This document shows, piece after piece, positions 2,595-45,829 of a stretch of DNA of 64,000 nucleotides. The stretch is from assembly GCF_025152405.1 (NCBI RefSeq), contig NZ_CP102292.1, positions 2,666,001 through 2,730,000 on the forward strand, read 5' to 3'. Source of the DNA: [Ruminococcus] lactaris ATCC 29176. GTDB lineage: Bacteria > Bacillota > Clostridia > Lachnospirales > Lachnospiraceae. Positions within the stretch are counted from its first letter, which is position 1, and every line of letters starts with the position of its first letter. The translations under genes and the position numbers were made by a program. Under the pieces are notes generated by a model, which was not told where the DNA came from, did no database searches, and saw only the letters and a list, made by a program, of their open reading frames with translations.

Positions 2595-2607
2595 AAAATC
2601 GGAAGTT
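2595..2607 (-). repeat. Boundary motif copy 1 (AACTTCCGATTTT)
   Basis: Minus-strand copy of the recurring motif near AACTTCCARTTTG. It lies just upstream of the SdpI-like gene, in inverted orientation to copy 2, which lies just after that gene. Confidence 0.4.
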
Positions 2608-2626
2608 GTAGTAAAGGAGGTTTACA

Positions 2627-3004
2627 ATGGGGTTTTGGATTTTTATGTTGATTATGGATTTACTTCTTCCATTTACGATGATTGGTTTTGGAAGATATTT
2701 TATGAAAAAGGCTCCAAAGGAAATAAATTCAGTATTTGGATATCGGACTTCGATGTCTATGAAGAACAAAGACACATGGGAATTTGCTCATAAATATTGT
2801 GGTAAAGTCTGGTATGTCTGTGGAATGGTTATGTTGCCGATAACAGTAATATTCATGCTTTTAGTGATTGGGAAAAATGAAGATTGTGTTGGGAGTATAG
2901 GAGGAATTATCTGTGGTGTTCAACTTATTCCTTTAATTGGGTCTATTCTCCCAACAGAAATAGCTTTAAAAAAGAATTTTGATAAGAATGGAACAAGACG
3001 ATAA
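2627..3004 (+). CDS. SdpI/YhfL-like integral membrane protein
   Basis: 125 aa with three to four hydrophobic segments (about residues 1-22, 58-82, 87-108). The loop GYRTSMSMKNKDTWEFAHKY is the hallmark of the SdpI family, whose founding member gives Bacillus subtilis immunity to the SdpC killing peptide. Here it would act in the membrane, possibly as an immunity protein, but no SdpC-like toxin is adjacent. The ATG follows AAAGGAGG at good spacing. Its stop codon touches a copy of the AACTTCC motif, and another copy precedes the gene, so it sits alone between two motif copies. Confidence 0.75.
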   Translation: MGFWIFMLIMDLLLPFTMIGFGRYFMKKAPKEINSVFGYRTSMSMKNKDTWEFAHKYCGKVWYVCGMVMLPITVIFMLLVIGKNEDCVGSIGGIICGVQLIPLIGSILPTEIALKKNFDKNGTRR

Positions 3005-3015
3005 ATTCCAGTTGA
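3003..3015 (+). repeat. Boundary motif copy 2 (AAATTCCAGTTGA)
   Basis: Begins inside the TAA stop codon of the SdpI-like gene. A longer 13-bp exact match ATAAATTCCAGTT is shared with 12871-12883, on the other side of the mobilizable element, so the pair could also be attachment-site repeats of that element. Confidence 0.45.
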
Positions 3016-3108
3016 TATTTCACATATTTTAGGAAATTTAATAACTGTTATATTTAATTATCAAATTCTTCGCAAACCCTTGAAAATACTAAGTTTGTAG
3101 CAAGTGAG

Positions 3109-3190
3109 CTTTCCCTTACTCTTTCCCTTGTGTTATATTCTCACATTGGTTTTCATGAACCTTAATATGGGAAAAAATAAGGGAAAGAAA
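3109..3190. other. Candidate left-end integrase arm sites
   Basis: Two direct copies of TTTCCCTT (3111-3136), the second ending in CTTTCCCTTGTG, and inverted GGGAAAAAATAAGGGAAAG about 50 nt on. A very similar set, TTTCCCTTATTTCCCTTGTG with AAGGGC and AAGGGAAAC, follows the integrase stop at about 12757-12805. Matching repeats at both ends suggest arm-type binding sites of the integrase. No gene is seen in 3005-3294. Confidence 0.45.
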
Positions 3191-3294
3191 ATTTCATAAC
3201 ACAGTATAACAATAACGACATGGTGAACTGATTGAAATGTTTTCGATATTTAACTCTATAACTGATTATTAAAAGAAAATGGAGATAAGATACG

Positions 3295-3531
3295 ATGAGA
3301 ACAATTTATGCAGAATACAACATAAATCACGATAGTATTGATGTTTACACAAGTGCCGGATATATGCTTCGCATTGATTGCTGGAAAGCTGAAAAAAATC
3401 TAAAAACCACATACGGATCAGAATGTGCGCTTACTTCATTGGCTGTGGATGAGCCTTTGGAATATGCAAGATTATATCTTGAGGGTAATTTACAGATGTG
3501 GGTAGATGCAGAAGACTCACTAGAGTTATAA
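3295..3531 (+). CDS. DUF6061 family protein
   Basis: 78 aa, starting MRTIYAEYNIN and containing GYMLRIDCWKAEK and EYARLYLEGNLQMWVD. I recognise this pattern as DUF6061, small acidic proteins of unknown function seen in mobile elements of gut Firmicutes. A GGAGATAAG ribosome site precedes the ATG. It is the leftmost gene of the mobilizable element and is transcribed towards the bacteriocin operon, ending about 90 nt before the convergent terminator. Confidence 0.65.
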   Translation: MRTIYAEYNINHDSIDVYTSAGYMLRIDCWKAEKNLKTTYGSECALTSLAVDEPLEYARLYLEGNLQMWVDAEDSLEL

Positions 3532-3623
3532 TCCTTATCCATATAAATAATATGCAAATATATATCCCATCAATATAGCGAATATACTGAAATAAAAGTA
3601 TCTTTATAATCAATTTTAACCAA

Positions 3624-3669
3624 AAGAATATGTTCTTAGAGGAGGTGTCTCCCGAAAGAACATATTCTT
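3624..3669 (-). terminator. Terminator of the bacteriocin operon
   Basis: A perfect 14-bp inverted repeat (AAGAATATGTTCTT / AAGAACATATTCTT) with an 18-nt loop, starting 14 nt past the stop codon of the ABC ATPase. A short T tract follows on the minus strand. Confidence 0.65.
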
Positions 3670-3682
3670 CTATTATGGGTAA

Positions 3683-4297
3683 TTATAAATATAGAACATG
3701 CTTTTCTTGTGCTACAATTTCTTCACTATGAGTTACAACAATAACTGTTTTTCCCTGTTCACTTAACTCATGCAATATATTCATAACAATCTCACTATTT
3801 TTTTTGTCTAAGGAACCAGTTGGTTCGTCTGCTAATACAATCGAACATTTCTTTAGCATTAAACGAGCTAACGCAACTCTCTGCTGTTCGCCACCAGATA
3901 ATTGATAGACTTTTTTGTTAATTACTTTCTGTAAACCAACTTTTTCAAGAGCTTCATTTATTGAAATATCCGTTCTACCTGATTTTTTTATTATTTCTAG
4001 ATTTTCTTTTACTGTTTTGTTTTCCAAAAGGGCAAAATTTTGAAATAAAAATCCAACAACTTCTTTGAAATATTTCTGCTTTTTTCCTTTTTTTGCCACA
4101 TCAAAACCATTCACAATAATAGAACCTTTGTCAGGAGTTTCAATACCTCCAATCATATTAAGTAAAGTACTTTTTCCGCATCCACTTTCGCCACTAATTA
4201 CCAAAAAACGGCTATCTGGAATTTCCAAATGAAAATTTTTGAACAAAATTTTATCATTATATGCTTTGCATAGATTTTCAATTGTTATCATAAGCAA
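3683..4297 (-). CDS. Bacteriocin-type ABC transporter, ATP-binding protein
   Basis: 204 aa, a single nucleotide-binding domain. Walker A GESGCGKST (about residues 38-46), Q-loop FLFQNFALLENKTV, signature LSGGEQQR, Walker B IVLADEPTGSLD and switch His in VVTHSEE are all present. It fits the lactococcin-972-associated ABC ATPase group. It should pair with the membrane protein encoded just upstream, whose last codons overlap its start by 10 nt (translational coupling; ATG at 4291 is an alternative start). Last gene of the operon that begins with the bacteriocin precursor. Confidence 0.85.
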   Translation of the reverse strand: MLMITIENLCKAYNDKILFKNFHLEIPDSRFLVISGESGCGKSTLLNMIGGIETPDKGSIIVNGFDVAKKGKKQKYFKEVVGFLFQNFALLENKTVKENLEIIKKSGRTDISINEALEKVGLQKVINKKVYQLSGGEQQRVALARLMLKKCSIVLADEPTGSLDKKNSEIVMNILHELSEQGKTVIVVTHSEEIVAQEKHVLYL

Positions 4298-6228
4298 CCT
4301 CCTTTTAATGATTTCGGTATGTTTGTTTTTTCAACAATTGTGATATTAAAGAAAATAATTGTAAATTCTATTAGTGCCATAAATGAACTAACAAGAATGC
4401 TAATTCCTACTTCAGTCTGTACCGATAATAAAGAATAGATAAGCATACCTACTAATATCACAAAATTTTCCACTACAATCATTTTAAGAAGTGTTTTGTG
4501 CCGTTCAAATAAACTATATCCAAAGATTTTCATCAAGGAAATTTTCATTGCATTTTCTCGGAACTCTAGTCTACTTACTGTAACAATAATCATAATATTT
4601 AAAAGCAATACAATCGTACAAAGAGAACTTAAAAATCCCACGAGTTTTATTAAAAATGTGTGATTATATAAATACTGTTCATGTACGTTTGTAATTACTA
4701 GCTGATAATTTCCAAGCATATCTTCATACTTTTTGCTGATATTTCTTAGCTGTTTTTCATCACATTGAAATAAAACTGCTCCTGCTTTATAGCTTTCAAG
4801 ATACCCACCATTGACTGCTAAATCTTTGTTTGCCTGATAAATAATTATCGGATTTTTGCTTTTTTCGATACCATTTATTCTACTTGTATCTAAATAGGAA
4901 AAGTATTCTGTTTCGCTATACTCTATGTACTGAATATTTAATTGTTGTAAATTATCATGATTTAAAACATGGCTCAAGGAGTCATAGGCTAATTGCTTGT
5001 TTTTAGCAAAATATCTATTCTTTGGAATGAAAATAATCAAATCAGAAGATTCATTCTCTACTGCATTTATCTGCTTCGTAAAACCTTGTAACATATCTTT
5101 TGCATGATTATTTACATATATCACATCATTTTTATCATTTAAAATATTCAAGCATATTACAGGCTTTAATGTGTTATATTCATTCTTGTATAGTTTATTC
5201 CAAAAAGCTTCTTCTTTTTCAGCATTAAAATCAGTAGTCTTTACGGTAAAATAATTTGCATCATAATATTCTTCTAACAAATGTTCATTTGTAAATAGGT
5301 TATTATGAATACTACTAATATTAGTGGTAATTGTAAAAACAGCGGCTACCCCTGCTATAAATTTTAACGAATAAATTAAAAAATCCACTCCTCTTTTGTG
5401 TGTTGCATTTGCGAATGCCTTTCTAATATCAAAAAAGCAAAAAGAACAATATGGAATAGTGGAAAGAATAATTCCAATGGAATATAAAATTGTGACGAGT
5501 CTATTCTCATATGCTCCCGATATATAATTTGACAGCAATATTTTTGCAACAATAAATAATGCAATGTCAAAAGTTACATCGAATAAAGCAGCCTTAAATG
5601 CTATGAAACCAGCACTTTCTCCTAAGGAAACTCGTACAACAACCTCTTTTTTTCGCCTAACCACTTCAATTACATTTAGAACAATCATCAATGCAATAAT
5701 CATACCCCATATAATAAAAATCATGTCCTTTTCCGTAGAATTCCAATATTCTGGATAAGTTAAGCTATATTTTTCTGATAATTTCTGATATGCAGAGATA
5801 ATATTGTCCTCATTTCCTATGTATGAGATAAAGTTTTCATAACCCACAGAGGTACTTTGCAATTCTGAGAGATTATGAAATTTTACTTTCGTAATTCCGG
5901 AAACTAAAGCGGTATATTCTGATTCTTCTATGTTTGCAGTATTTTTTAATGTTTGTCTGATTACTTTATCATCGCCATAAATATGAAGTGTTGAAAGGTA
6001 TTTATTATTGATTTCATTGTACTGAGAAAAAATATGTACATCATTCTCCGTTGCAGTTTCTGATACATCTTTCAGAAACTGCGACATATCTTCACTAGCA
6101 ACTTCATAGCGTGATGACGTAAAATATGCTGTAGAAAAGTTCCAAAGCTGATCTTGAAATATTTCAGATTGCATAAGTATTCCAAAAATCAGGAAACAAA
6201 ACAAACATAAGTTTTTAATTGCTTTCAT
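4288..6228 (-). CDS. Bacteriocin-associated integral membrane protein (ABC permease)
   Basis: 646 aa. An N-terminal membrane anchor is followed by an extracytoplasmic domain, then three to four membrane segments (about residues 170-290), a second large outer domain, and a C-terminal membrane block (about 535-640). This is the MacB/FtsX-like layout of the multi-span proteins that accompany lactococcin 972-family bacteriocins (DUF1430-type). With the ATPase it would export the bacteriocin or protect the producer. It starts directly after the 149-aa gene and overlaps the ATPase gene. Which of export or immunity it provides cannot be decided from sequence. Confidence 0.8.
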   Translation of the reverse strand: MKAIKNLCLFCFLIFGILMQSEIFQDQLWNFSTAYFTSSRYEVASEDMSQFLKDVSETATENDVHIFSQYNEINNKYLSTLHIYGDDKVIRQTLKNTANIEESEYTALVSGITKVKFHNLSELQSTSVGYENFISYIGNEDNIISAYQKLSEKYSLTYPEYWNSTEKDMIFIIWGMIIALMIVLNVIEVVRRKKEVVVRVSLGESAGFIAFKAALFDVTFDIALFIVAKILLSNYISGAYENRLVTILYSIGIILSTIPYCSFCFFDIRKAFANATHKRGVDFLIYSLKFIAGVAAVFTITTNISSIHNNLFTNEHLLEEYYDANYFTVKTTDFNAEKEEAFWNKLYKNEYNTLKPVICLNILNDKNDVIYVNNHAKDMLQGFTKQINAVENESSDLIIFIPKNRYFAKNKQLAYDSLSHVLNHDNLQQLNIQYIEYSETEYFSYLDTSRINGIEKSKNPIIIYQANKDLAVNGGYLESYKAGAVLFQCDEKQLRNISKKYEDMLGNYQLVITNVHEQYLYNHTFLIKLVGFLSSLCTIVLLLNIMIIVTVSRLEFRENAMKISLMKIFGYSLFERHKTLLKMIVVENFVILVGMLIYSLLSVQTEVGISILVSSFMALIEFTIIFFNITIVEKTNIPKSLKGGCL

Positions 6229-6678
6229 TTATTTCAACCCCAGATTCCATACTTTATTTGCTTTTTCAAATATCGTAGTCAATATTGTGCTATTTTCATC
6301 AACAATCCATTGATCTTCTTGATCTTCAGCTTTTTTGCTACTTGACAACATAATTTGAGTATTCAAATCCTTATAGTCATTAAATAGCACGCCTTGACTT
6401 ATTCCTTGGTGAAATGGTTTTATCCAAATAATTAGTGCATATCGAACATCTGACTCAGCTATCGCAAGATTTCCATTCCAAAGCAAATAATCAGGGACAG
6501 ACACACTATACTGGAATCCATCTTTATCTGTGTAAATTTTTACTCCAGATTCTTCTATTTCAGGGAAGTCTTTCTGAAATTCGTTATATGGTTTATAACT
6601 CCCGAAGTACCAAAATAAATTATAGCAACAGAACAAAATAACCAAAACAATTCCTATATATTTTATTTTTTTCTTCAT
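6229..6678 (-). CDS. Small membrane-anchored protein of the bacteriocin operon
   Basis: 149 aa: a lysine-rich start MKKKIKYIG, one membrane segment (about residues 6-28) and an outer domain of ~115 residues with no motif I know. Its stop is adjacent to the ATG of the permease, and it lies after the terminator that follows the bacteriocin gene. Position suggests an immunity or processing accessory. Function is unassigned. Confidence 0.6.
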   Translation of the reverse strand: MKKKIKYIGIVLVILFCCYNLFWYFGSYKPYNEFQKDFPEIEESGVKIYTDKDGFQYSVSVPDYLLWNGNLAIAESDVRYALIIWIKPFHQGISQGVLFNDYKDLNTQIMLSSSKKAEDQEDQWIVDENSTILTTIFEKANKVWNLGLK

Positions 6679-6693
6679 TTATATACACTCCAC

Positions 6694-6723
6694 AAAAAAG
6701 AGTGGTTGGAATTCCAACCACTC
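6694..6723 (-). terminator. Intercistronic terminator after the bacteriocin gene
   Basis: A perfect 12-bp inverted repeat with no loop gap (GAGTGGTTGGAA / TTCCAACCACTC), followed on the minus strand by six Ts. It lies 23 nt after the bacteriocin stop and 15 nt before the next start. It should make most transcripts stop after the structural gene, so the peptide is made in excess over exporter and immunity proteins. Confidence 0.75.
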
Positions 6724-6745
6724 AGCCATTATCCCGAACCTTTGT

Positions 6746-7090
6746 TTAGTAGCTATTACCGTAGGTAATACTATTTCCTTTATGAGCAACCTCAATTTTA
6801 GACCAATTACCTTTACCAACATTTGAACCCGAAAAAGAACCATTTCCATTCTTGACATATGCGTAATGATCTTTAGTTGAATGATATGCGTGTGCATAAT
6901 CTTCATTAATAGCAAGAGTATTATAACCATAAGTCAAAACACCTTTTCCGCCATCAGATGTAGTGCTCAATTCCCACTTTTTATCAAATGTCTTATTCCC
7001 GTTTGTAACAGAAAATGCCATTACTGGAATTGATGAAGAAATTAACATTGCACTAATAGCTACCCCTACAATCACTTTCTTTGCTCTCAT
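6746..7090 (-). CDS. Lactococcin 972 family bacteriocin precursor
   Basis: 114 aa with a Sec signal peptide (MRAKKVIVGVAISAM..., cleavage expected after the VMA at residue 25). The mature part has the family pattern of Gly/Ser/Trp/Tyr-rich strands: KKWELSTTSDGGKGVLTYGYN, then YAHAYHSTKDHYAYVKNGNG and SNVGKGNWSKIEVAHKG. Lactococcin 972 itself binds lipid II and blocks septum formation; the same target here is inference. The mature part (~89 residues) is longer than lactococcin 972 (66 residues). AAAGGAGG precedes the ATG. It is followed by accessory and ABC genes as in known clusters. Confidence 0.85.
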   Translation of the reverse strand: MRAKKVIVGVAISAMLISSSIPVMAFSVTNGNKTFDKKWELSTTSDGGKGVLTYGYNTLAINEDYAHAYHSTKDHYAYVKNGNGSFSGSNVGKGNWSKIEVAHKGNSITYGNSY

Positions 7091-7153
7091 AAGTTTTACC
7101 TCCTTTGATCTGCTGTATTTCTATTTATATTTTATCAAATATTTTGTATCTAG

Positions 7154-8107
7154 TCAATCAGTATCTTGACTTATATAGCGTCGAATTGTAAGATATATTC
7201 CTTGTAAAATTAACCAAAAGAACAACAGATTTATTGATAATGCTTTTTTAATTACTTCTCCAAAATAAATGATGACAGCCGCACTTGTCAGTATCATCAG
7301 TAGGGTAATAACATCCCAACAGTTTTTCTTATATAATTCTATAACCTTTATTTCTATCAGTATTGCCAGTATCCCTGTCCCTGCCACACATATTCCAACA
7401 ACCAATATCATCAATAACCAATATATGATTCCGGCTATAATCTCATTTGGAATTTTTGTGCTGATTTGTGCCACAGATTGCCCGGCATCAATCGTCCAAC
7501 CGATAAAAGTTTGTATGAATGATGCTGCATCATGGAAGAATGATTTGCAATCGGAAAGGAACACATCTGACTGTACTGCCTGAAAAAGAGTGGTTGTCAG
7601 CGAATACCATGCAAGAAGGAACAAGGTTGTTTGGAACATTACCGTTTTTGCTTTATATTGTCCTGCAAGTTGCTCTTTTTGTGTTTCGTATCTTGCTTTT
7701 GCATTCTGATAGGCTGTCCGGTCACAGGCTTCGCATTTTTTATAGAGTACCGGCTTTTCTACCGGTATCTCTACGATTTTCTGATGTGTCCGGGCATAAT
7801 CCCGTTGTTGTGTTAAGCATCGTATTTTATCTTGACATTCCTCTATCGTGACGTTTGCGCTTCGCAGCTTCTCTTTCTCGCTCCGCAATGCTCTGTCTGC
7901 CAGCTTCAAGTCGTTCTTTAATGCTTGAATATTCCCGGCTCTGTTCTCTTTGTTTAATTTCTCGTTCAAGGTCAGAGATTCGTTGAGCTGCGTCTTCAGT
8001 TCCACGATAAGCTGGTCTTTCTGTTCCAACTCTTCTTGTATCTCCTCGGTCAAGAGCAGAAGTTCTTCCAACTGTTCGGCGTTCTTTAATTCTCTGGATT
8101 CGTTCAT
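7154..8107 (-). CDS. Coiled-coil membrane protein (DUF6040-like) of the mobilization module
   Basis: 317 aa. Residues ~5-110 form a Glu/Leu/Lys-rich coiled coil, followed by a CEACDRTAY motif and four to five membrane segments from ~residue 155 to the end. I recognise the arrangement from mobilizable elements that carry a MobA/MobL relaxase (DUF6040-like). Its first 281 nt overlap the relaxase gene in another frame. AAAGGA lies 10 nt before the ATG, supporting real translation. It may couple the relaxosome to the membrane; that is a guess. The 3' end lies 64 nt from the bacteriocin start. Confidence 0.65.
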   Translation of the reverse strand: MNESRELKNAEQLEELLLLTEEIQEELEQKDQLIVELKTQLNESLTLNEKLNKENRAGNIQALKNDLKLADRALRSEKEKLRSANVTIEECQDKIRCLTQQRDYARTHQKIVEIPVEKPVLYKKCEACDRTAYQNAKARYETQKEQLAGQYKAKTVMFQTTLFLLAWYSLTTTLFQAVQSDVFLSDCKSFFHDAASFIQTFIGWTIDAGQSVAQISTKIPNEIIAGIIYWLLMILVVGICVAGTGILAILIEIKVIELYKKNCWDVITLLMILTSAAVIIYFGEVIKKALSINLLFFWLILQGIYLTIRRYISQDTD

Positions 8108-9548
8108 CTATATCACGTCCTTTCTCTACCTGCTGTTCCAGTTCAGCAATTCGGTGTTCTGTTTCAGTAATAAACTGTTTTCGCTGTTCAGCTTCTGTGC
8201 CAATATCTGCCATTGCTGATTTTCGTTTTCCAAAAGTTCTATCTTCGTTTTCTGTTCTTCCATCTTGGAAAGTAGTTCCTCGGTATTTGGCAAAATGTTG
8301 AGCAGCTCGGATAACTCGCTGTTTAATTTTTGCAATTTCTGATTCTGTTCCTGCATAAGAGAGAGTTGGGTGTCCCGGTTCTGCATTTCCAGAAGCATTT
8401 CTGCCATTAAGGTCTGCTGTTCTTCGATTTGCCCAATCATGGACTCCATTAAGGGTATAATTTCCCGGCTTTCTTCTAATGTCATTTAATCGCTCCTTCC
8501 ATAATGATAATGCACCTGATACTTTCCCAAAGGTGTCCAGTATCTTTTGCAATAACGTGTTTTGTTGTTTTATGATTTGATTTTCCGCTACTTTCCACGA
8601 ACCTTTTATTTCCTGCCCGGCAAGAAACTTTTGTTCAATCTTTCTTGCGTCAGCACCTTCATGGATGGTAGGAATCTGGAGTTTTCCCTGCTTTTCGTAA
8701 GAACGGTGATCGACCTGATTATGCAAAGGCAGATGTTCATTACACACCTTTGCCCACTCGCTCCGCCACAGTTCACAGTTTTTTGGATTGTTCCATCCCG
8801 TAGCATCGGTCAGTACCCGTTTCCATTGCAGGCGGTTTCTTGCACCAATCTTCTGGATTCCGTTTTCATCTAATACAGGGATACGGATTCCATGACGGTC
8901 AGGGTTTTTCTTATCCTGCCACCAGTTCGGATGGGATTCATCAATCACGATATTTCCGCTTTTATCTCTGACAAAATCCCAATCTTTGACTTCTTTCTTC
9001 CCCCAAGAATGATCCGGGTTAAAAGGGCGCATTGTCAGAAGCAGATGGACATGAGGATTGCCATCCCCTTTGTCGTGGATACTCCAATCAGCACACATTC
9101 CCTTATCCACAAATGTTTTTTTGATATAGTCGGCTGTATATTGAATCTGTTCCTGTCTGCTCCATTCTTTGGGGAGGGCAAATTCAAATGACCTGCCAAG
9201 TTGGGCATCTGCACTTTTTTCAATCTTCAATACCTCATTCCATAACCGTTGTTTCTGAAATGTGATTTTAAATTTTTCTAAAGCAGCTTCTTTATCTTCT
9301 GACCTTTTGTATCGGACAGATTTTTGAAAGCGTTTTATATTTTCTTCTGGTACTATCTGCCATTCAGGAGGTGCGTTTTCGCACATCATCAGACTGGTGT
9401 AGACCACTTCTTTTTTAGAAGTGTAATAACTGATTCGCCCGGTTTCCTCGTTTTTCATCACATCCCCATTGAGATATGCGGAAGCGGAGATAACAGATTT
9501 CCCTTTACTTCGTCCGACTATTTTGATTGTGTAATGAAAAATCGCCAT
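7827..9548 (-). CDS. mobA: MobA/MobL family relaxase
   Basis: 573 aa from the ATG at 9548, preceded by AAAGGGGG; the upstream in-frame ATG at 9596 has no ribosome site. The protein opens MAIFHYTIKIVGRSKGKSV, typical of MobA/MobL (MOBQ) relaxases. The metal-binding motif is in DGNPHVHLLLTMRPF, after a catalytic N-terminal region with SASAYLNGD. The enzyme nicks the transferred strand at oriT, stays bound to its 5' end and pilots it through a conjugation pore supplied by a helper element. The last ~220 residues are charged coiled coil and overlap two other genes in a second frame. No type IV secretion genes are present, so the element is mobilizable only. Confidence 0.88.
   Translation of the reverse strand: MAIFHYTIKIVGRSKGKSVISASAYLNGDVMKNEETGRISYYTSKKEVVYTSLMMCENAPPEWQIVPEENIKRFQKSVRYKRSEDKEAALEKFKITFQKQRLWNEVLKIEKSADAQLGRSFEFALPKEWSRQEQIQYTADYIKKTFVDKGMCADWSIHDKGDGNPHVHLLLTMRPFNPDHSWGKKEVKDWDFVRDKSGNIVIDESHPNWWQDKKNPDRHGIRIPVLDENGIQKIGARNRLQWKRVLTDATGWNNPKNCELWRSEWAKVCNEHLPLHNQVDHRSYEKQGKLQIPTIHEGADARKIEQKFLAGQEIKGSWKVAENQIIKQQNTLLQKILDTFGKVSGALSLWKERLNDIRRKPGNYTLNGVHDWANRRTADLNGRNASGNAEPGHPTLSYAGTESEIAKIKQRVIRAAQHFAKYRGTTFQDGRTENEDRTFGKRKSAMADIGTEAEQRKQFITETEHRIAELEQQVEKGRDIDERIQRIKERRTVGRTSALDRGDTRRVGTERPAYRGTEDAAQRISDLEREIKQREQSREYSSIKERLEAGRQSIAEREREAAKRKRHDRGMSR
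8126..8485 (-). CDS. Coiled-coil protein nested inside the relaxase gene
   Basis: 119 aa, almost wholly coiled coil (repeated LLEMQ, QNQKLQKLNSELSELL, ELLENENQQW). It lies entirely inside the relaxase gene in the +1 frame relative to it, the same frame as the membrane protein that starts 18 nt after its stop. A strong Shine-Dalgarno (GGAAGGAG, 7 nt spacing) precedes its ATG, inside relaxase codons, which argues against chance. It may be a mobilization accessory. No family assigned. Confidence 0.55.
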   Translation of the reverse strand: MTLEESREIIPLMESMIGQIEEQQTLMAEMLLEMQNRDTQLSLMQEQNQKLQKLNSELSELLNILPNTEELLSKMEEQKTKIELLENENQQWQILAQKLNSENSLLLKQNTELLNWNSR

Positions 9549-9632
9549 GTCTGGATTCCCCCTTTCTGCACATCCGGCATAGATTTCCGGCAACATTGCT
9601 TTCAGTTTTAGAAAAAGCAGTATTGCCGGAAC

Positions 9633-9717
9633 GCCCTCTGCGTAAGAGTGCCCTGCGCATAGCAGCCTGCATGGAATGCGCCCCTCTGGCGAAGAGTGCC
9701 TCCTGCGGCATGAGCAG
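9633..9717. repeat. Two degenerate ~35-bp direct repeats before the relaxase
   Basis: Copies at about 9633-9665 and 9680-9717 share GCCC(C)TCTG, AAGAGTGCC and CTGCG-GCA/CAT-AGCAG blocks. The stretch is markedly GC-rich against its neighbours. It lies between the oriT candidate and the relaxase start and may bind a mobilization protein. Confidence 0.4.
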
Positions 9718-9773
9718 GTCTGGCTGAAAGCCCCGCCGACGGAACGAGCCCGGCAAGCGTGAGCGAAGACCGG

Positions 9774-9830
9774 TTGCCACTTGTGGCAAACTTATTGGGA
9801 CGACCTCTGGTTGTCCATAAGTGCGCCCTT
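9774..9830. other. Predicted oriT of the mobilizable element
   Basis: Three parts in order: a perfect palindrome TTGCCAC-TT-GTGGCAA (9774-9789); an inverted repeat GGACGACC / GGTTGTCC with 3-nt loop (9798-9816; one G-T pair); then ATAAGTGCGCCCTT (9817-9830). The inverted repeat followed by TGCGCCCT matches the known nick-region layout of RSF1010/R1162-type (MOBQ) origins. It lies about 230 nt upstream of the relaxase start, the usual place. Confidence 0.65.
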
Positions 9831-9878
9831 CATGAAAAAGCAATGAAGGGAATGAAAAACTCATCCCCCCCCCCGCCA

Positions 9879-10193
9879 TTACACTTCCTCCATATCGGTA
9901 TGTGTTTCTTTCTGCATTGCCTTTGAAAAAAATTTCCCATTGGCTTCCTGCTTTTTCAGAAAACCAATCAGCTTTGGGATGTCCTCTTCCTCGATAGGCG
10001 CACCGAGAACGGATTCCACCGCACCGCCAACCTGACAGAGCCTATGGGTTCGTTTTTTACTTTCTTCGGCTTTCTTTCGTTTCAGAAGTTCTTTCTTCTG
10101 TGCTGCATATCGTTTTGCTTTTTCAAGGCTTTCCTGTTCCTTCTTTTCCATTTCAAGCATTCGTTCTTCATAACTTTTTGTTGATTTTGCCAT
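9879..10193 (-). CDS. DUF3847 family protein
   Basis: 104 aa, strongly basic. Residues 1-50 are a Lys/Glu-rich helix (KSYEERMLEMEKKEQESLEK...), followed by RTHRLCQVGGAVESVLG and DIPKLIGFLKKQE. I recognise DUF3847, regularly found before MobA/MobL relaxase genes in gut Firmicutes elements. Size, charge and position next to oriT suggest a relaxosome accessory that binds oriT, in the role of MobC; that is inference. Confidence 0.7.
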   Translation of the reverse strand: MAKSTKSYEERMLEMEKKEQESLEKAKRYAAQKKELLKRKKAEESKKRTHRLCQVGGAVESVLGAPIEEEDIPKLIGFLKKQEANGKFFSKAMQKETHTDMEEV

Positions 10194-10308
10194 GATTACA
10201 TTCCCCTTTCTTTTACAAACATAAGTTCTCGGTTGCGTATCAGAAGAAGCACATGGTATAATCTTCTTGCGTGTAGGTATATCATGGCTTCGGTCTGATA
10301 GAACCTTT

Positions 10309-10337
10309 GGCGGTTTCTTTGGAAGCCGCCTTTTTAA
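10309..10337 (+). terminator. Hairpin with T tract at the excisionase stop codon
   Basis: GGCGGTTTC-TTT-GGAAGCCGCC followed by TTTTT on the plus strand. No plus-strand gene is upstream, so it may block antisense reading of the xis region or, as a hairpin, stabilise the xis mRNA end. Confidence 0.45.
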
Positions 10338-10564
10338 TTTGCCGCAGTTCTTGTTACGGCTTTTACATTTCCTCTATCCCTCAAATCACGACCTTCATTC
10401 GCTTCCATAAACATTTCCAGAATATCGGTTTTAATCAGGACTTTGCGACCAACCTTTAATACTGGAAGTTTCTTCCATTCTACAAGCTGTCTTAAGGTGT
10501 TTCTGCCGATTCCCGTATAGTCAGCAGCTTCTTCGATGGATAATGCAATTTTTCTTTGCGTCAT
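10334..10564 (-). CDS. xis: Excisionase-type HTH protein
   Basis: 76 aa, a winged helix-turn-helix of the excisionase (Tn916 Xis/MerR-like) group: LSIEEAADYTGIGRNTLRQL followed by LPVLKVGRKVLIKTDILEMF, in which the wing GRKVLI reads the backbone. It would direct the integrase towards excision. GGAGGTGATTAT precedes the ATG. It has its own consensus promoter with an operator-like palindrome just after it, and diverges from the XRE gene. Confidence 0.8.
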   Translation of the reverse strand: MTQRKIALSIEEAADYTGIGRNTLRQLVEWKKLPVLKVGRKVLIKTDILEMFMEANEGRDLRDRGNVKAVTRTAAN

Positions 10565-10583
10565 ATAATCACCTCCTTATAAA

Positions 10584-10596
10584 TTGCATTATGCAA
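10584..10596. promoter_or_regulatory. Operator candidate TTGCA-N3-TGCAA, xis side
   Basis: Perfect palindrome TTGCATTATGCAA (with a further A/T pair on each side) in the 5' untranslated region of xis. Same half-sites and spacing as the copy at 10670-10682. Likely bound by the adjacent XRE protein. Confidence 0.6.
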
Positions 10597-10609
10597 TTCT
10601 TGTGATGTA

Positions 10610-10638
10610 AGTATATCCTTTTCATATCTTTTTGTCAA
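10610..10638 (-). promoter_or_regulatory. xis promoter
   Basis: On the minus strand TTGACA (10638-10633), 17 nt, TATACT (10615-10610). A near-perfect sigma-A promoter pointing into xis. The operator lies about 13 nt downstream of the -10 box, in roadblock position. Confidence 0.7.
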
Positions 10639-10669
10639 GCGTTACGAAATATTAAAAATAATTTTTAAG

Positions 10670-10682
10670 TTGCATATTGCAA
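10670..10682. promoter_or_regulatory. Operator candidate TTGCA-N3-TGCAA, xre side
   Basis: TTGCATATTGCAA overlaps the -35 box of the XRE promoter, consistent with negative autoregulation. Confidence 0.6.
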
Positions 10683-10705
10683 TTACAGAAAAACAATGCT
10701 ATAAT
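10677..10705 (+). promoter_or_regulatory. XRE regulator promoter
   Basis: TTGCAA (10677-10682), exactly 17 nt, TATAAT (10700-10705). Start codon at 10736 follows AAAGGAGG. Confidence 0.65.
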
Positions 10706-10735
10706 TCATACATACCGAAAAAGGAGGCAGTCAGC

Positions 10736-11365
10736 ATGAAAGATAAAGAACTACGCAAGCTGATAGGCAGCAGAGTAAAACAGCGCCGTCTGGAATTGAA
10801 TCTGACACAGCCTTATGTCGCAGAAAAGATGGGTGTTACCGCTTCTACAATCCTGCGTTATGAGAATGGTTCGATTGACAATACGAAAAAAATGGTGCTG
10901 GAAGGTCTTTCGGAAGCACTCCATGTATCTGTGGAATGGCTCAAAGGGGAAACAGATGAATATGAAACCGACATTACGGATAAGAGAGAGTTACAGATTC
11001 GTGATGCGATGGGAGATATTCTGGAACAGTTACCGCTTGCCCTTACCAAAGAAGAAGATGCTTTTTCAAAAGATTTATTACTGCTGATGTTAAAACAATA
11101 TGGTCTGTTTTTGGATTCCTTCCAGTTCGCCTGCAAAAACTTCAAGGGGAATGCTGGTCAGACGGATATTGCCAAAACAATAGGGTTTGAATCGAATGAT
11201 GAATATAATGAGATTATGTTCTTAAGGGAAATCACTCACACCATCAATGCTTTTAATGAGATGGCAGACGTTGTAAGGCTCTATTCCAAGAAACCAAAAA
11301 CAGCAGAACAAAGGCTTGCAAATCTTTTATCAGAAGTCTTATACGAAGATTCCGAATCGGTATAG
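10736..11365 (+). CDS. XRE family transcriptional regulator of the mobilizable element
   Basis: 209 aa from the ATG after AAAGGAGGCAG; a longer reading frame from 10670 would start inside the operator and is unlikely. Residues ~4-65 are an HTH_3 domain (IGSRVKQRRLELNLTQPYVAEKMGVTASTILRYENG). The rest is helical without a peptidase (SHHIR) motif, so it should be inducer- or partner-controlled rather than LexA-like. It most likely represses xis and itself through the two TTGCA-N3-TGCAA sites, holding the element in the integrated state. Confidence 0.8.
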   Translation: MKDKELRKLIGSRVKQRRLELNLTQPYVAEKMGVTASTILRYENGSIDNTKKMVLEGLSEALHVSVEWLKGETDEYETDITDKRELQIRDAMGDILEQLPLALTKEEDAFSKDLLLLMLKQYGLFLDSFQFACKNFKGNAGQTDIAKTIGFESNDEYNEIMFLREITHTINAFNEMADVVRLYSKKPKTAEQRLANLLSEVLYEDSESV

Positions 11366-11368
11366 TAA

Positions 11369-11427
11369 GACAACCGGAGTTATGATATACTTACACGCAC
11401 GAAGCATTTCATCAGTTCCGATTGTCT
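11369..11427 (+). promoter_or_regulatory. Inverted repeat in the integrase leader
   Basis: AGACAACCGGAG (11369-11380) and TTCCGATTGTCT (about 11414-11425) pair at 10 of 12 positions and enclose TATACT-like sequence. It lies between the XRE stop and the integrase start and could be an operator or an mRNA hairpin. Confidence 0.35.
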
Positions 11428-11451
11428 AATATCGAAAGGAGACATACGATT

Positions 11452-12747: not shown

Positions 12748-12756
12748 AAAATTTCC

Positions 12757-12805
12757 CTTATTTCCCTTGTGATTATCTCATAAGGGCAAAAAGAAGGGAA
12801 ACTAC
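12757..12805. other. Candidate right-end integrase arm sites
   Basis: TTTCCCTTATTTCCCTTGTG and inverted AAGGGC / AAGGGAAAC, matching the set at 3109-3190. Location just past the integrase gene is usual for arm sites. Confidence 0.45.
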
Positions 12806-12872
12806 ATATCATTTCACTAATGGACAGGCGGGAAAGCCTATAAAATGGGGAAAGTTAGAGGAATAATTATAT

Positions 12873-12885
12873 AAATTCCAGTTTG
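12873..12885 (+). repeat. Boundary motif copy 3 (AAATTCCAGTTTG)
   Basis: Part of a 13-bp exact repeat (ATAAATTCCAGTT, 12871-12883) shared with 3001-3013. It separates the mobilizable element from the small membrane-protein gene. Confidence 0.45.
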
Positions 12886-12908: not shown

Positions 12909-13118
12909 ATGAGAATATTATACGAACTTTCATGGTTATGGGAGACGCTGGTCATTGTGCTTGCGGCTGCGGCTGTTTGCGTGGTTTGTGCCATGCTAAT
13001 CTGTAAGGCAGTAAAGAAGAACTTCAGCAAAAAAACGGCGGCAGTTATCGGCGCAGCAGCGTTTGCGGGTGCTGTTTTGGCAGTCATTGTGATTGCCCGG
13101 ACTCCGATGCCGCTTTGA
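12909..13118 (+). CDS. Small two-span membrane protein
   Basis: 69 aa with two hydrophobic segments (about residues 10-32 and 42-65) joined by a lysine-rich loop CKAVKKNFSKK. AAAGG lies about 12 nt before the ATG, a weak ribosome site. Not recognised. It sits alone between two motif copies (12873 and 13154). Confidence 0.5.
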   Translation: MRILYELSWLWETLVIVLAAAAVCVVCAMLICKAVKKNFSKKTAAVIGAAAFAGAVLAVIVIARTPMPL

Positions 13119-13153: not shown

Positions 13154-13166
13154 AACTTCAAGTTTG
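13154..13166 (+). repeat. Boundary motif copy 4 (AACTTCAAGTTTG)
   Basis: Less exact copy of the motif. It leads within 8 nt into the ~100-bp repeat also found at 45862-45956, as copy 8 does. Confidence 0.4.
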
Positions 13167-13173
13167 TGAAATT

Positions 13174-41191: not shown

Positions 41192-41247
41192 GGATGAACT
41201 CCATTAAGCAATTTTGAAGCTAACATTAAAATATGATAGTAAGTAGA

Positions 41248-41260
41248 CAAATCGGAAGTT
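41248..41260 (-). repeat. Boundary motif copy 5 (AACTTCCGATTTG)
   Basis: Minus-strand copy upstream of the lipoprotein gene, matching copy 1 at 12 of 13 positions. Confidence 0.45.
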
Positions 41261-41373: not shown

Positions 41374-42000
41374 ATGAAAAAACGCACTCTTACTGTACTA
41401 GTTGTTGTGTTAGTATGCACATTCTTGACGGCGTGTAGTAAAGAAATAGACGCTGTGACGGAATCTGTAAACGAAAAGGAAAGTAGTGTAATAAAGAACC
41501 CTACAGTTTTAGAAGATACAATAGAAATTGTTTTTCCAGAACAGTTTGAAGGATTGTCTGGGTATGATGAAAAAGCACTAGTTGACTATCTTAAAGAAAA
41601 CAGTGACGGAAATTATCAGAAAATCGAATGTATTGACGGACAAGTTAATATGGTTGCTACTCAGGAAGAAATTGAGTATTGGAAAGGATATGTTGAAAAA
41701 CATATAGATGATCAAAAGGCAGTATTAACAGGTATCAATCAGAAGTATGATATGTGTTGTAATGATTCATATAACACTATTAATATGTACTATGATCAAG
41801 AACTTTCATTTAAAAAAGCTTTTTCATGCGTTGGAAAAACAGCTATATATTGTGCCATGTATCAGATATTAGATGGCAATCCTGATTATTCAATTTATCT
41901 AAATATTTATAATGTCGATACAGGGAAATTAGTAGTTGGCGGAAATCTAATGAATGAAGAAGTTTCATATACAGATGAGGACTGGGAAAAAACTTTCTAG
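41374..42000 (+). CDS. Hypothetical lipoprotein
   Basis: 208 aa. Signal MKKRTLTVLVVVLVCTFLTA ends in lipobox LTAC at ~residue 21. The remaining domain has no motif I know (YDEKALVDYLKENSDGNYQK; CCNDSYNTINMYYDQ). GGAGGAAAAATC precedes the ATG. It is the only gene between boundary motifs 5 and 6. Surface protein of unknown role. Confidence 0.65.
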   Translation: MKKRTLTVLVVVLVCTFLTACSKEIDAVTESVNEKESSVIKNPTVLEDTIEIVFPEQFEGLSGYDEKALVDYLKENSDGNYQKIECIDGQVNMVATQEEIEYWKGYVEKHIDDQKAVLTGINQKYDMCCNDSYNTINMYYDQELSFKKAFSCVGKTAIYCAMYQILDGNPDYSIYLNIYNVDTGKLVVGGNLMNEEVSYTDEDWEKTF

Positions 42001-42085: not shown

Positions 42086-42098
42086 AACTTCCAATTTA
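42086..42098 (+). repeat. Boundary motif copy 6 (AACTTCCAATTTA)
   Basis: Lies 86 nt after the lipoprotein stop and 38 nt before the next gene. A near repeat AAATTGAAATTTGAGGAG follows. Confidence 0.45.
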
Positions 42099-42135
42099 CA
42101 GAATCAAGAAAATTGAAATTTGAGGAGATTGTTGC

Positions 42136-42738
42136 ATGGATATAATAATTCCACTACTTATAGTGTCGGTTCTTATCGGAATTCCAACATGGTTAATGGT
42201 TCGCACTATGAACAAAGCCGATAAAAACACGATTGTTTACTCACCGGAAGAAGTGACTAAAAAACTTCGCAAAGGATTCTATTTGTCATTTTTGGGGATA
42301 GATTTATTGTTTGGAGCGATTCCTTTGTTTGTTCTTATACTTTACGACCTTCCTAGAGTCTTTCAATTTATCGTTCCGGCTGTAGCATTTGTCGTTGGAT
42401 TTATCATGTTTTTTATTGGAAGAATTCAGGTCGGGCTAATGACCAGATACATAAATTTTTGCAACAGAGAGAGAACGGAATTTGAGGAATGGGTTTTGCA
42501 AGTTATGCTGGGCATCGAGGAAGCAGCCATGAGAAGAAATGGAATAAATTCCATAACAAAAGTAATTCCTGGTGTTACAGATGACATGCTTTCAGCCATG
42601 AACAGTACAGGTATCATCAGTGGTTATATGGAAGTCGGAAGAGTTTACACTGGAAAAAATATATTAAAAAATCACTGGCCAATAATTAGTATTATAGTGG
42701 CAATTCTAATCTCTATTGTAATTACTGTAACAAGATAA
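42136..42738 (+). CDS. Hypothetical membrane protein, 200 aa
   Basis: Membrane segments near residues 3-18, 50-72, 78-100 and 178-198. Between the third and last is a ~75-residue cytoplasmic-looking part (RIQVGLMTRYINFCNRERTE). TTTGAGGAG is the ribosome site. Not recognised. First of three plus-strand genes of membrane proteins between motif copies 6 and 7. Confidence 0.6.
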   Translation: MDIIIPLLIVSVLIGIPTWLMVRTMNKADKNTIVYSPEEVTKKLRKGFYLSFLGIDLLFGAIPLFVLILYDLPRVFQFIVPAVAFVVGFIMFFIGRIQVGLMTRYINFCNRERTEFEEWVLQVMLGIEEAAMRRNGINSITKVIPGVTDDMLSAMNSTGIISGYMEVGRVYTGKNILKNHWPIISIIVAILISIVITVTR

Positions 42739-42775
42739 TTTTTATAGGCAGAAAAAATTAGGAGAAGTTAGGAAT

Positions 42776-43147
42776 ATGCAGAAAAGAGACTTAATCCAAG
42801 CGAATGCTTCATTAGAAAATCTACGACAGAATTTGGACATGAAGGATTTTGCAAAAGAAATATTACTTGAGGAGAATTATAATAAATTTATAAGATCATA
42901 CAAATTTACATTTTGGTTTCAATTAATCGGTGTATTAGCTGGATTTATAGTGCCATCAGTTGTTCTTCTTATTATTTTTAAAGAGTTTATTTACTGTGCT
43001 TTTGGTGCAACTATAGGAATTTTTTGGATGTGTGTATGGATGATGCTAAGTATGGTAATTCCCCCGACAAGGATATATCGAAAATTTGCAAAGTGGTATA
43101 GGAAAAGCGATGTGTCTATACGCGACTTGGATGAGATATTTTATTGA
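42776..43147 (+). CDS. Hypothetical membrane protein, 123 aa
   Basis: A charged N-terminal helix (QKRDLIQANASLENLRQNLD), two membrane segments (about 45-68 and 72-95) and a basic tail. AGGAGAAG precedes the ATG. No family assigned. Same operon-like run as its neighbours. Confidence 0.55.
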   Translation: MQKRDLIQANASLENLRQNLDMKDFAKEILLEENYNKFIRSYKFTFWFQLIGVLAGFIVPSVVLLIIFKEFIYCAFGATIGIFWMCVWMMLSMVIPPTRIYRKFAKWYRKSDVSIRDLDEIFY

Positions 43148-43164
43148 AGGGGACAGAAAAATAG

Positions 43165-43680
43165 ATGGAGATGAAAAAGGAATCTAATATATTGACTGAG
43201 GAAAAACCCAAATACATAATATCGCTAAAGAAGAGATATAGAATTCTTTATATCGTTATGTTTGCCTTATTTTTGGTGTGTACGATGTATTTTGGAGTGA
43301 TATCACTTTGTGCAGGTACAGATACGATGATTTTTGATATTGGAATCACAGTTATTTTTCTTATATTTTTATTCTGTTTTTTGCATGGTTTAACAAGAAA
43401 ATGTGAAAGATACAAAGGCAAAGTTGTGTATTCATTTTTCTTAACAAAGAGAGAATATAAATTGTCAGACATTGCATTCTCTAATGAAAAAATTGAAGAG
43501 TTTTATAAAGATTATGGAGATGGAAATGTAAGCAGCAGTTGGGATAAGGTCACGATTTTCTATAATAAACAAGGTGAAAAGCTCTTTAAATTTGGCTTAG
43601 CTTATGATAACGTTCAGTTATTAGTAAGAGATGTCAAAAATGCACAAAGAAGTATTTCGAATCAGAAAAAGAAGAATTAG
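43165..43680 (+). CDS. Hypothetical membrane protein, 171 aa
   Basis: Two membrane segments (about 28-50 and 58-80) followed by a ~90-residue soluble part (KREYKLSDIAFSNEKIEEFY, WDKVTIFYNKQGEKLFKFGL), resembling bacterial PH-like or DUF6560-type membrane proteins; this is only a shape match. GAAGGGGAC is a modest ribosome site. Its TAG stop lies 2 nt before boundary motif 7. Confidence 0.6.
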   Translation: MEMKKESNILTEEKPKYIISLKKRYRILYIVMFALFLVCTMYFGVISLCAGTDTMIFDIGITVIFLIFLFCFLHGLTRKCERYKGKVVYSFFLTKREYKLSDIAFSNEKIEEFYKDYGDGNVSSSWDKVTIFYNKQGEKLFKFGLAYDNVQLLVRDVKNAQRSISNQKKKN

Positions 43681-43682
43681 AC

Positions 43683-43695
43683 AACTTCCAGTTTG
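43683..43695 (+). repeat. Boundary motif copy 7 (AACTTCCAGTTTG)
   Basis: Starts 2 nt after the stop of the 171-aa gene. The extended form CTTCCAGTTTGGAGAA is partly palindromic. Confidence 0.5.
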
Positions 43696-43739
43696 GAGAA
43701 TTGAAAAAACGGAATTTACCTATTAAGACATATAAACTG

Positions 43740-43795
43740 TTGACAATAAAGCTCCTATATAGTATGTTTTTAACAAACTACTATATAGGAGCTTT
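43740..43795 (+). promoter_or_regulatory. MarR promoter with 17-bp operator palindrome
   Basis: TTGACA (43740-43745), 17 nt, TATGTT (43763-43768). A perfect 17-bp inverted repeat, AAAGCTCCTATATAGTA (43748-43764) and its complement (43779-43795), spans the promoter. The right arm also holds the AGGAG ribosome site of marR, 7 nt before its ATG. Likely operator of the MarR protein. Confidence 0.7.
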
Positions 43796-43798
43796 TGT

Positions 43799-44236
43799 AT
43801 GGAAATGAATGGAGGATTTCTTGTTACCAAAATAAAACAGCTTGGAGACCGGATTTTCGAGAAGATTCTCAGTGAAAAGAATATTGATGCGTTTAATGGA
43901 GCCCAGGGGCGTATTCTTTATGTGCTGTGGCAGGAGGATGGTATCTCAATCAGGTCACTCTCGACTAAATGCGGATTAGCGATAACATCTCTTACTACGA
44001 TGCTGGAAAGAATGGAAAATCAAGGGCTGATAAGCCGTGTTCAGTCTGAAACGGACAAAAGGAAAACGCTCCTGTTTCTGACTGAGAAAGCACATACCTT
44101 AAAGGGCGAGTACGATTCTGTATCTGATGAGATGGGCAGTATTTACTACAAAGGTTTTTCAGAGGAAGAAATTACCCGGTTTGAGGAATGCCTCGACCGC
44201 ATTAGAAAGAATCTTGAGGAGTGGCAGAAGTCATGA
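43799..44236 (+). CDS. MarR family transcriptional regulator
   Basis: 145 aa, full length. Winged helix with recognition region GISIRSLSTKCGLAITSLTTMLERMENQGLISR and wing ETDKRKTLLFLTEKA. MarR dimers usually repress their own operon until a small ligand binds. The 17-bp palindrome over its promoter is the likely target. Its stop overlaps the start of radical SAM gene A (ATGA), so the three genes form one operon. Confidence 0.88.
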   Translation: MEMNGGFLVTKIKQLGDRIFEKILSEKNIDAFNGAQGRILYVLWQEDGISIRSLSTKCGLAITSLTTMLERMENQGLISRVQSETDKRKTLLFLTEKAHTLKGEYDSVSDEMGSIYYKGFSEEEITRFEECLDRIRKNLEEWQKS

Positions 44237-44922
44237 GTATTTGTATCAACGATCAGATTCAGAACATGAATATCGTCATTGGATGCACCGTGGGGTGTAC
44301 ATATTGCTATGCCCGCAACAACGTGAAACGCTGGCATATGATTGATGACTTCGCTGACCCTGAATTCTTTCCGGGTAAGCTCAAGATGATGGAAAAGAAA
44401 CGTCCGCAGAACTTTCTTCTTACCGGGATGAGCGATCTCTCCGGATGGAAGCCGGAATGGAGAGACGAGGTATTTGCAAAGATCCGTGAAAATCCACAGC
44501 ATCAGTTCCTGTTCCTTACCAAGCGACCTGATTTGCTGGATTTTGATACCGATCTGGAAAACGCATGGTTTGGCGTTACGGTGACGAGGAAAGCAGAACT
44601 GTGGCGTATTGACACCCTTCGGAAAAATGTCAGAGCAAAACATTATCATGTTACCTTTGAGCCGTTATTCGATGATCCCGGCACAGTTGACCTTTCCGGA
44701 ATCAATTGGATCGTTGTCGGCACCATGACCGGAGCTCAGAGCAGGAAGATTCATACGGAGCCGGGATGGGCATGGTCTCTGACGGATCAGGCACACGCAC
44801 TCGGCATTCCGGTGTTTATGAAGGAAGACCTTGTCCCTATCATAGGGAATGAAAATATGATTCAGGAAATGCCGGAGGAATTCAACAAAGTGTTGGAGGT
44901 GCAGAGATCATGGAAGAAGTAA
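44233..44922 (+). CDS. Radical SAM mobile pair protein A
   Basis: 229 aa from the ATG at 44233 (MSICINDQIQNMNIVIGCTV), overlapping the MarR stop; GAGGAG lies upstream. The cluster-binding motif is GCTVGCTYCYARN (Cys-x3-Cys-x2-Cys). LLTGMSDLSGWKPEW and FLFLTKRPDLLDF also fit DUF5131/Gp37-like radical SAM proteins. Together with protein B it forms the MarR-linked radical SAM mobile pair, found in mobile regions of Firmicutes with unknown chemistry. Genes A and B overlap by 13 nt. Confidence 0.85.
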   Translation: MSICINDQIQNMNIVIGCTVGCTYCYARNNVKRWHMIDDFADPEFFPGKLKMMEKKRPQNFLLTGMSDLSGWKPEWRDEVFAKIRENPQHQFLFLTKRPDLLDFDTDLENAWFGVTVTRKAELWRIDTLRKNVRAKHYHVTFEPLFDDPGTVDLSGINWIVVGTMTGAQSRKIHTEPGWAWSLTDQAHALGIPVFMKEDLVPIIGNENMIQEMPEEFNKVLEVQRSWKK

Positions 44923-45818
44923 TAAATGGAATCCTCATTCGTGAGGTGGAAACAAAGAACATCATGACCAAGTCCAGTCTGCCGGTAGGCGGGTACTCGG
45001 TCAATCCCTATGTGGGCTGTACACATGCCTGCAAGTATTGCTATGCTTCTTTTATGAAGCGCTTTACCGGGCACAAGGAGGAATGGGGCACTTTCCTTGA
45101 TGTGAAGCATTGGCCGGAAATTAAAAATCCGAAGAAATATGCCGGACAGCGGGTGGTCATCGGTTCTGTGACGGATGGCTACAATCCACAGGAGGAGCAA
45201 TTCGGAAATACCAGAAAACTTCTGGAGCAGCTGATCGGCAGTGACGCAGATATTCTGATCTGTACAAAGTCGGATCTTGTGGTACGGGATATTGATCTGT
45301 TGAAGAAGCTTGGACGTGTAACCGTTTCATGGTCGATCAACACACTAGATGAAAATTTCAAGAACGATATGGATTCTGCTTCGAGCATTGAGCACCGTAT
45401 CGCTGCTATGAAGCAGGTATATAAGGCAGGTATCCGTACAGTCTGTTTCGTATCCCCGGTATTCCCCGGCATCACGGATTTTGAAGCAATCTTTGAGCGG
45501 GTAAAGGATCAGTGCGATCTGTTCTGGCTCGAAAACCTCAATCTTCGAGGCGGTTTCAAAAAGACAATTATGGATTATATCGCCGGAAAATATCCTGATC
45601 TTGTACCACTTTACGACGAGATCTATAACAAGCATAACCGCAGCTACTTTGAAGCGCTTGAAGTAAAAGCTGAGAAAATGGCTAAGAAGTATGATTGTGC
45701 CTTTGTGGATAATGAAATGCCTTATGGCAGAGTCCCGCAGGGGCATCCGGTGATCGTAGATTATTTCTATCATGAGGAAATCCGAGGGACAGAGAATACC
45801 GGAAAAAGAAATCGCTAA
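44910..45818 (+). CDS. Radical SAM mobile pair protein B
   Basis: 302 aa. Motif GCTHACKYCYASFMKRF (Cys-x3-Cys-x2-Cys) near residues 35-50 binds the 4Fe-4S cluster; GSVTDGYNPQEEQFGNTRKL and FCFVSPVFPGITDFE-like segments follow, in line with a spore-photoproduct-lyase-like (SplB-type) radical SAM barrel. The TAA stop is part of boundary motif 8. With protein A and MarR it forms a three-gene, autoregulated unit. Substrate unknown; nucleic-acid repair is a possible guess from the SplB resemblance. Confidence 0.85.
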   Translation: MEEVINGILIREVETKNIMTKSSLPVGGYSVNPYVGCTHACKYCYASFMKRFTGHKEEWGTFLDVKHWPEIKNPKKYAGQRVVIGSVTDGYNPQEEQFGNTRKLLEQLIGSDADILICTKSDLVVRDIDLLKKLGRVTVSWSINTLDENFKNDMDSASSIEHRIAAMKQVYKAGIRTVCFVSPVFPGITDFEAIFERVKDQCDLFWLENLNLRGGFKKTIMDYIAGKYPDLVPLYDEIYNKHNRSYFEALEVKAEKMAKKYDCAFVDNEMPYGRVPQGHPVIVDYFYHEEIRGTENTGKRNR

Positions 45819-45829
45819 CTTCCAATTTG
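45817..45829 (+). repeat. Boundary motif copy 8 (AACTTCCAATTTG)
   Basis: Begins within the TAA stop of radical SAM gene B. The array-end repeat follows 32 nt later. Confidence 0.5.

Follow-up and report, generated by a model that had tools for sequence, protein, structure and literature searches.

Candidate gene-cassette arrays and an integrative mobilizable element at a shared short site in [Ruminococcus] lactaris

Integrons have a leader site and cassettes in tandem, each gene having a site behind it; cassettes are exchanged between arrays, and mobile elements carry them (PMC8618304). In Firmicutes they are extremely rare: IntegronFinder 2.0 gives one complete integron and a few CALIN (clusters of attC sites lacking integron-integrases), according to PMC9024848. 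In the accretion of cis-mobilizable elements (CIMEs) and integrative mobilizable elements (IMEs), elements are flanked by shared att sites at which IMEs integrate (PMC5704250). The window analysed here is a 64,000-nt stretch of [Ruminococcus] lactaris ATCC 29176 (NZ_CP102292.1, positions 2,666,001 to 2,730,000), in which short genes are bounded by copies of a 13-bp motif. We read it as holding two arrays of mobile gene cassettes that belong to an integron-like system of Lachnospiraceae with an IME-type integrase as recombinase (probability roughly 0.65); that the units are cassettes is in itself very probable. No such system in Clostridia was found in the open-access literature, subscription papers and preprints being outside the search.

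The arrays resemble integrons in all the respects listed above, and tandem cassettes that move between arrays were found. Unlike integrons, the source genome has no IntI above the family cut-off, the sites are short (~13 bp, or inverted pairs of ~35 bp), an attC hairpin is unsupported, and no integrase was seen beside the leaders examined. Because two defining features, IntI and hairpin attC, were not found, the system works like an integron but is not classed as one. Unlike CIME/IME accretion, the units are gene-sized and have a common leader and end; they are not decayed conjugative elements. The best reading is that the core sites are double-stranded and that the system is akin to CIME accretion, from which it differs in its gene-sized cassettes, leader and terminator. 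One cassette (43683-45829) corresponds to the NCBIfam 'radical SAM mobile pair' (TIGR04471, TIGR04470) plus its MarR regulator. The family name already says mobile; the unit edges and the site are new, as far as searched, and the phrase itself was not found in open-access papers.

The core site, cassette edges and reassortment

The preliminary description had placed eight motif copies at gene boundaries, and all were recovered with the same coordinates and strands (Table 1). With at most one mismatch, the window contained six matches (12873, 13154, 41248 on the reverse strand, 42086, 43683 and 45817) against 0.28 expected, the mean over 40 first-order Markov resamplings of the window. The comparison with shuffled sequence that had been proposed therefore placed the strict motif well above chance. 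Matches with exactly two mismatches (6 versus 6.0 expected) or up to three (53 versus 59.2) were not enriched in the window. For this reason the copies at 3003 (three mismatches) and 2595 (two mismatches) mean little by themselves; they were rescued by comparison, since the region at 661-2630 is duplicated and the SdpI unit ends at the motif in a related species. In the 2.73-Mb genome, 18 forward and 3 reverse matches (21 in all) had at most one mismatch, against 1 + 1 = 2 for the reversed control pattern.

Proximity to stop codons also held: the copy at 3003 overlaps the SdpI stop, that at 45817 overlaps the stop of radical SAM protein B, and that at 43683 begins 3 nt past the end of a 171-aa open reading frame (ORF). 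The ORF upstream of the motif lay on the same strand in 30 of 38 cases, with a median stop-to-motif distance of 1.5 bp. The inverted copies with the variant CGATTT and the end repeat common to both arrays (13160-13280 and 45848-45949) were likewise found.

Units recurred elsewhere with edges at the motif. The MarR and radical SAM unit (43683-45828) is duplicated at 44797-46943 of the chromosome with 96.9% identity, starting and stopping at the motif. Region 661-2630 matched 2034037-2036006 of the same genome (99.6%), and behind this array-1-like stretch the small membrane protein unit occurs again at 2036.6 kb (98.7%); the genes between leader and unit differ from those of array 1, and so does the end. 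Relatives include [Ruminococcus] faecis JCM 15917 (G008) and [R.] torques ATCC 27756 (G034); the SdpI unit was present in R. faecis (96.1%) and ended at the motif. Besides its two copies in the source genome, the MarR unit occurred in six other genomes, hosts including Falcatimonas MSJ-15, Gemmiger An194, Lachnospiraceae GAM79 and Mordavella An420c, and in two Lachnospira eligens plasmid records, one of which was examined. Both ends were visible in three of the six genomes and one end in three (L095, L105, L122), the stretches from GAM79, An194 and An420c each taking in just one end. Every visible end was at the motif. On the left the neighbours differ between genomes; on the right, 3.7 kb is common to the window and R. 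torques, including the array end and a DUF4143 gene. In a comparison of 16 array loci, 70 alignment edges were scored, and 44 of them lay within 8 bp of a motif (at most three mismatches) in both sequences, against 0.23% of random positions; the pairs are not independent.

Many internal sites are ~35 bp long and consist of AACTTCMAGTTTG, ~10 bases (GAGAATTGAG) and AAAATCGGAAKTT; in such a site an inverted left junction stands behind a right junction (a pair of inverted simple sites). The leader junction reads CAAATCG joined to GAAGTT, and the inverted CGATTT copy is this left junction. The MarR unit had its own variant spacer in every context with a visible left end, and the preceding AACTTYM changed with the neighbour. 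A lambda-like layout would fit, with platform arms CAAAT/GTTTG and cassette arms AACTT/AAGTT; it would give CAAATCGGAAGTT as left junction and AACTTCCAGTTTG as right junction. The suggested likeness to integron attC sites stood for the array architecture and found no support for the hairpin: observed pairs (83.5%) were close to those in shuffles (83.2%), there was no covariation over shuffles, and Rfam gave only one sub-threshold chance match. TATAAT-like boxes were seen by eye before the leaders of G020, G003 and several elements related to integrative conjugative elements (ICEs); no clear promoter was seen beside the junction of leader 1.

Slot exchange and IME integration at cassette sites

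The same site occurs in a slot of an element of Lachnospiraceae that we take to be ICE-like, a label resting on a relaxase and a sigma-70 region 4 protein. At E 0.001, the conserved sequence 3' of the slot site had matches in 38 of the 397 Lachnospiraceae genomes, some of them restricted to its right part. The site region was present in 28 of the 43 slot loci; their occupants were of 17 distinct kinds, and for 15 of these an ORF ends nearby. Averaged by hand, the commonest base had a mean frequency of 0.44 in the 48 bases to the left of the motif, rising to 0.79 in the adjoining 12 and to 0.89 in the 14 after these; leftwards, conservation drops to background at the motif. Occupants included GNAT, NUDIX, RibD_C, metallo-hydrolase and methyltransferase proteins. 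The occupant of L139 was not recognisable as NUDIX, and for that of L142 the match to cytidine deaminase fell under the family cut-off. In L117, L130, L139/L230 and L240 the leaders agree in the sigma-gene end, in the box and in CAAATCG (or CAGATCG) and diverge after that; those of L102/L229 and L231 are unlike this group, and L235 and L244 had no leader module of L117 type. Since units recur in other contexts with motif edges and slot occupants vary only up to the motif, the motifs are best read as recombination junctions that delimit cassettes, as had been proposed.

The proposed division into units held for the cassettes and failed for the largest, which is no ordinary cassette: with its MobA/MobL relaxase, excisionase, 441-aa tyrosine integrase and sequence common to both ends, the element at 3003-12885 is an IME with its own attP. 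These genes are as in IMEs with Tn916/Tn1549-type integrases. The chain with solved structure nearest to the integrase is the Int protein of 6emy/6emz, which we take to be Tn1549 Int. A 99.3% copy of the IME occupies another cassette-type site in G018; by eye, it lies behind a GNAT-like gene at AACTTAC joined to AGTTGATA and ends at AAATTCC joined to AGTTTG before a hairpin. In G256, a cassette-type site is split by a 6,824-bp insert, a related element (70% similar; integrase 71%). This site stays whole in G241 and G488, with the same upstream gene and the same element end downstream. The right flank of the insert was 99.6% identical to G488 over 930 bp; the left flank reached 88% in an ungapped count and was identical near the site. 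Because the insert splits a site found intact in these two other genomes, the IME integrase family uses cassette sites as attB.

Among 18 readable integrase-side ends of the IME family, 7 were read as lying at array, leader-like or slot sites (G000, the source genome, and G001, G018, G034, G106, G108, G256), which sets the family apart from Tn916/Tn1549-type IMEs; 3 adjoin a ribosome-binding site (RBS) or hairpin. Site model R1 matched 6 of 58 genomes of the genus at E 0.01 or better; after G025 and G031 were dropped, 4 counted as array genomes (E below 1e-6). An integrase homologue was present in 3 of these 4 and in 4 of the 54 others. Of 13 genomes reached via loci, six had a homologue: 6 of the 7 with at least two model sites and 0 of the 6 with one or none. 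This co-occurrence could be due in part to kinship or to genomes that are rich in mobile elements.

Proposed mechanism and rival explanations

A cassette would be a short gene, or a small group of such genes, closed by a tyrosine-recombinase core site AACTTCMARTTTG, and an array would open at the leader junction and close with a terminator-like hairpin. The IME-type integrase would recombine core sites, inserting IMEs there, and may move cassettes either in trans or by accretion: integration beside a cassette, joint excision, transfer, and a cassette left behind. Cassettes at the leader would be read from an upstream promoter. Because IMEs sit exactly on cassette sites or split them, their tyrosine integrase is the best candidate recombinase. 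We lean slightly towards its recombining the cassette core sites, and it is likely that it moves cassettes. The balance also tips, by a little, towards gut Clostridia having their own counterpart of integrons, with double-stranded core sites and arrays in chromosomes and the ICE-like slot moved by site-sharing IME integrases, so that IMEs and arrays form one exchange system. If so, Lachnospiraceae gut bacteria would have a route for swapping single adaptive genes (the cargo includes acetyltransferase, NUDIX, RibD-type, metallo-hydrolase, methyltransferase, MarR and radical SAM proteins), the movement of the 'radical SAM mobile pair' would be explained, and unit edges overlooked by annotation would be predicted.

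Several observations weigh against this account. Eight of the 18 integrase-side ends were read as off arrays or unclear; one of these belongs to a further copy in G018, which lies within a permease gene. R. faecis (assembly 88% complete) and G100 hold several sites and no close integrase. Arm-like repeats (TCCCTT/AAGGGA) lie near both IME ends and were missing from six cassette sites checked, so that recombination between cassettes would have to do without arms. Common expression from the leader is weakened by the lack of a scan match to a promoter at leader 2 and by the MarR unit's own promoter-like match. Of the 70 edges, 26 did not lie at a motif in both sequences; some were off by a few bases and some lay at plain gene divergence. 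The predicted empty platform was matched in 1 of 397 genomes, 32 bp past a small ORF inside an occupied slot, and was thus not convincingly found. No cassette circle was seen; free integron cassettes are circular.

Some insertion sequences and introns use attC. Similarly, cassettes might be moved by another recombinase, the IME merely using their sites as attB; we consider this possible, although doubtful. The uneven distribution of arm-like repeats and the genomes without a close integrase fit such a view, and a second tyrosine integrase family left fragments after array 1 (13435-14073) and an 87-bp DNA repeat after array 2 (47355-47441). However, none of six intact genes of the second family had a convincing cassette site within 1.5 kb (one match with two mismatches, L271), and the leaders read in G020 and G003 have no integrase next to them. 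The source genome carries several further tyrosine recombinases. Somewhat less likely again is that the units are decayed IMEs or ICEs with retained att sites. Such accretion is known for IMEs and CIMEs (PMC5704250), and IMEs do integrate into array sites here; yet most of the units are compact, a single gene lying within a few bases of the site, unrelated genes have the same leader and end, and no IME remnant was seen, no systematic search having been made.

The two remaining explanations are very improbable. A degenerate true integron, with IntI and folded attC, would share the architecture of leader, array and sites after genes, but the hairpin had no covariation and all 10 IntI matches in the source genome were weak, none exceeding the TIGR02249 cut-off. 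The IME integrase scored 54.4 bits against a cut-off of 265 and is not IntI. A conserved regulatory element would suit the intergenic position of the motif, close to stops or ahead of start regions; against it, contexts that are unrelated lose homology at the motif, and an IME has inserted in it.

Feature coordinates and further observations

Table 1. Features of the two arrays (window coordinates)
Feature	Coordinates	Strand	Remarks
Region upstream of array 1 (genes and leader)	661..2630	+	duplicated in genome up to first cassette
Leader (left) junction, array 1	2595..2607	-	unit edge common with R. faecis
Cassette gene, SdpI/YfhL family	2627..3004	+	Pfam PF13630; 96.1% recurrence in R. faecis
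Cassette site, now left junction of IME	3003..3015	+	
IME within cassette site	3003..12885	.	99.3% copy at another site in G018
Relaxase, MobA/MobL family	7827..9596	-	PF03389
Excisionase-family protein of IME	10334..10564	-	TIGR01764
Tyrosine integrase of IME, candidate cassette recombinase	11422..12747	+	PF00589; closest solved chain, Int protein of 6emy
Cassette site, right junction of IME	12873..12885	+	
Cassette gene, small membrane protein (69 aa)	12909..13118	+	unit 98.7% at G000 2036624-2036926
End site, array 1	13154..13166	+	
Terminator-like hairpin, array 1, in shared end repeat	13176..13207	+	
Leader (left) junction, array 2	41248..41260	-	TATGAT at 41232-41237 promoter-like by eye only
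First cassette gene, array 2, lipoprotein-like by eye	41374..42000	+	no Pfam match
Full internal site (right junction and inverted left junction)	42086..42121	+	
Three small genes of one unit (200, 123, 171 aa)	42136..43680	+	
Full internal site, variant carried by MarR unit	43683..43717	+	
MarR regulator	43799..44236	+	PF01047; promoter-like match upstream at 43740-43768
Radical SAM mobile pair protein A	44221..44922	+	TIGR04471, 423 bits, cut-off 355
Radical SAM mobile pair protein B	44910..45818	+	TIGR04470, 605 bits, cut-off 410
End site, array 2	45817..45829	+	
Terminator-like hairpin, array 2, in shared end repeat	45864..45893	+	

Terminator-like hairpins were overall no rarer in shuffled sequence. 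In relatives the exact motif was a poor marker, found in 16 of 99 genomes, mostly as single copies, and by eye most copies examined were without the canonical extension. An extended pattern built from the sites gave 56 loci in named genomes; many were single copies outside Clostridia and were taken as chance. Viral contigs gave five loci; the site of one (L151) is of the type seen in Roseburia L107.

Elsewhere in the source genome, additional arrays or solitary sites lie at 44797-46943, 54888-55940, 228303-228344, 1756860-1756899, 2036624-2036926 and 2487057. At 54.2-55.9 kb the cassettes are YitT-family, DUF3784 and GyrI-like; the DUF3784 gene of this array had first been named SdpI-like. In G020 (L034 and L084, leader at L084:9525), three small genes behind a leader have a different palindromic site, CAAATCCTAATTTG, between them, which may represent a second specificity of this system. 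An integrase fragment of R. torques that looks N-terminal (L083:13721-14029) lies 3' of an end site and was assigned by eye to the second integrase family. A 4,183-bp GenBank record named 'Bacteriophage sp.' (MT839570.1) is 99.6% identical to part of the IME (window 3466-7649) and probably represents a mobilizable element with a wrong label. A related IME (62% covered, 96.5%) occurs on Agathobacter rectalis plasmid NZ_CP143948.1 (L260), where the integrase end is joined directly to the RBS of a small gene. The window also contains three copies of a self-folding 87-nt repeat (53628-53714, 54687-54773 and 59740-59826), which resembles stretches at 36.0 kb and 79-80 kb of the source genome.

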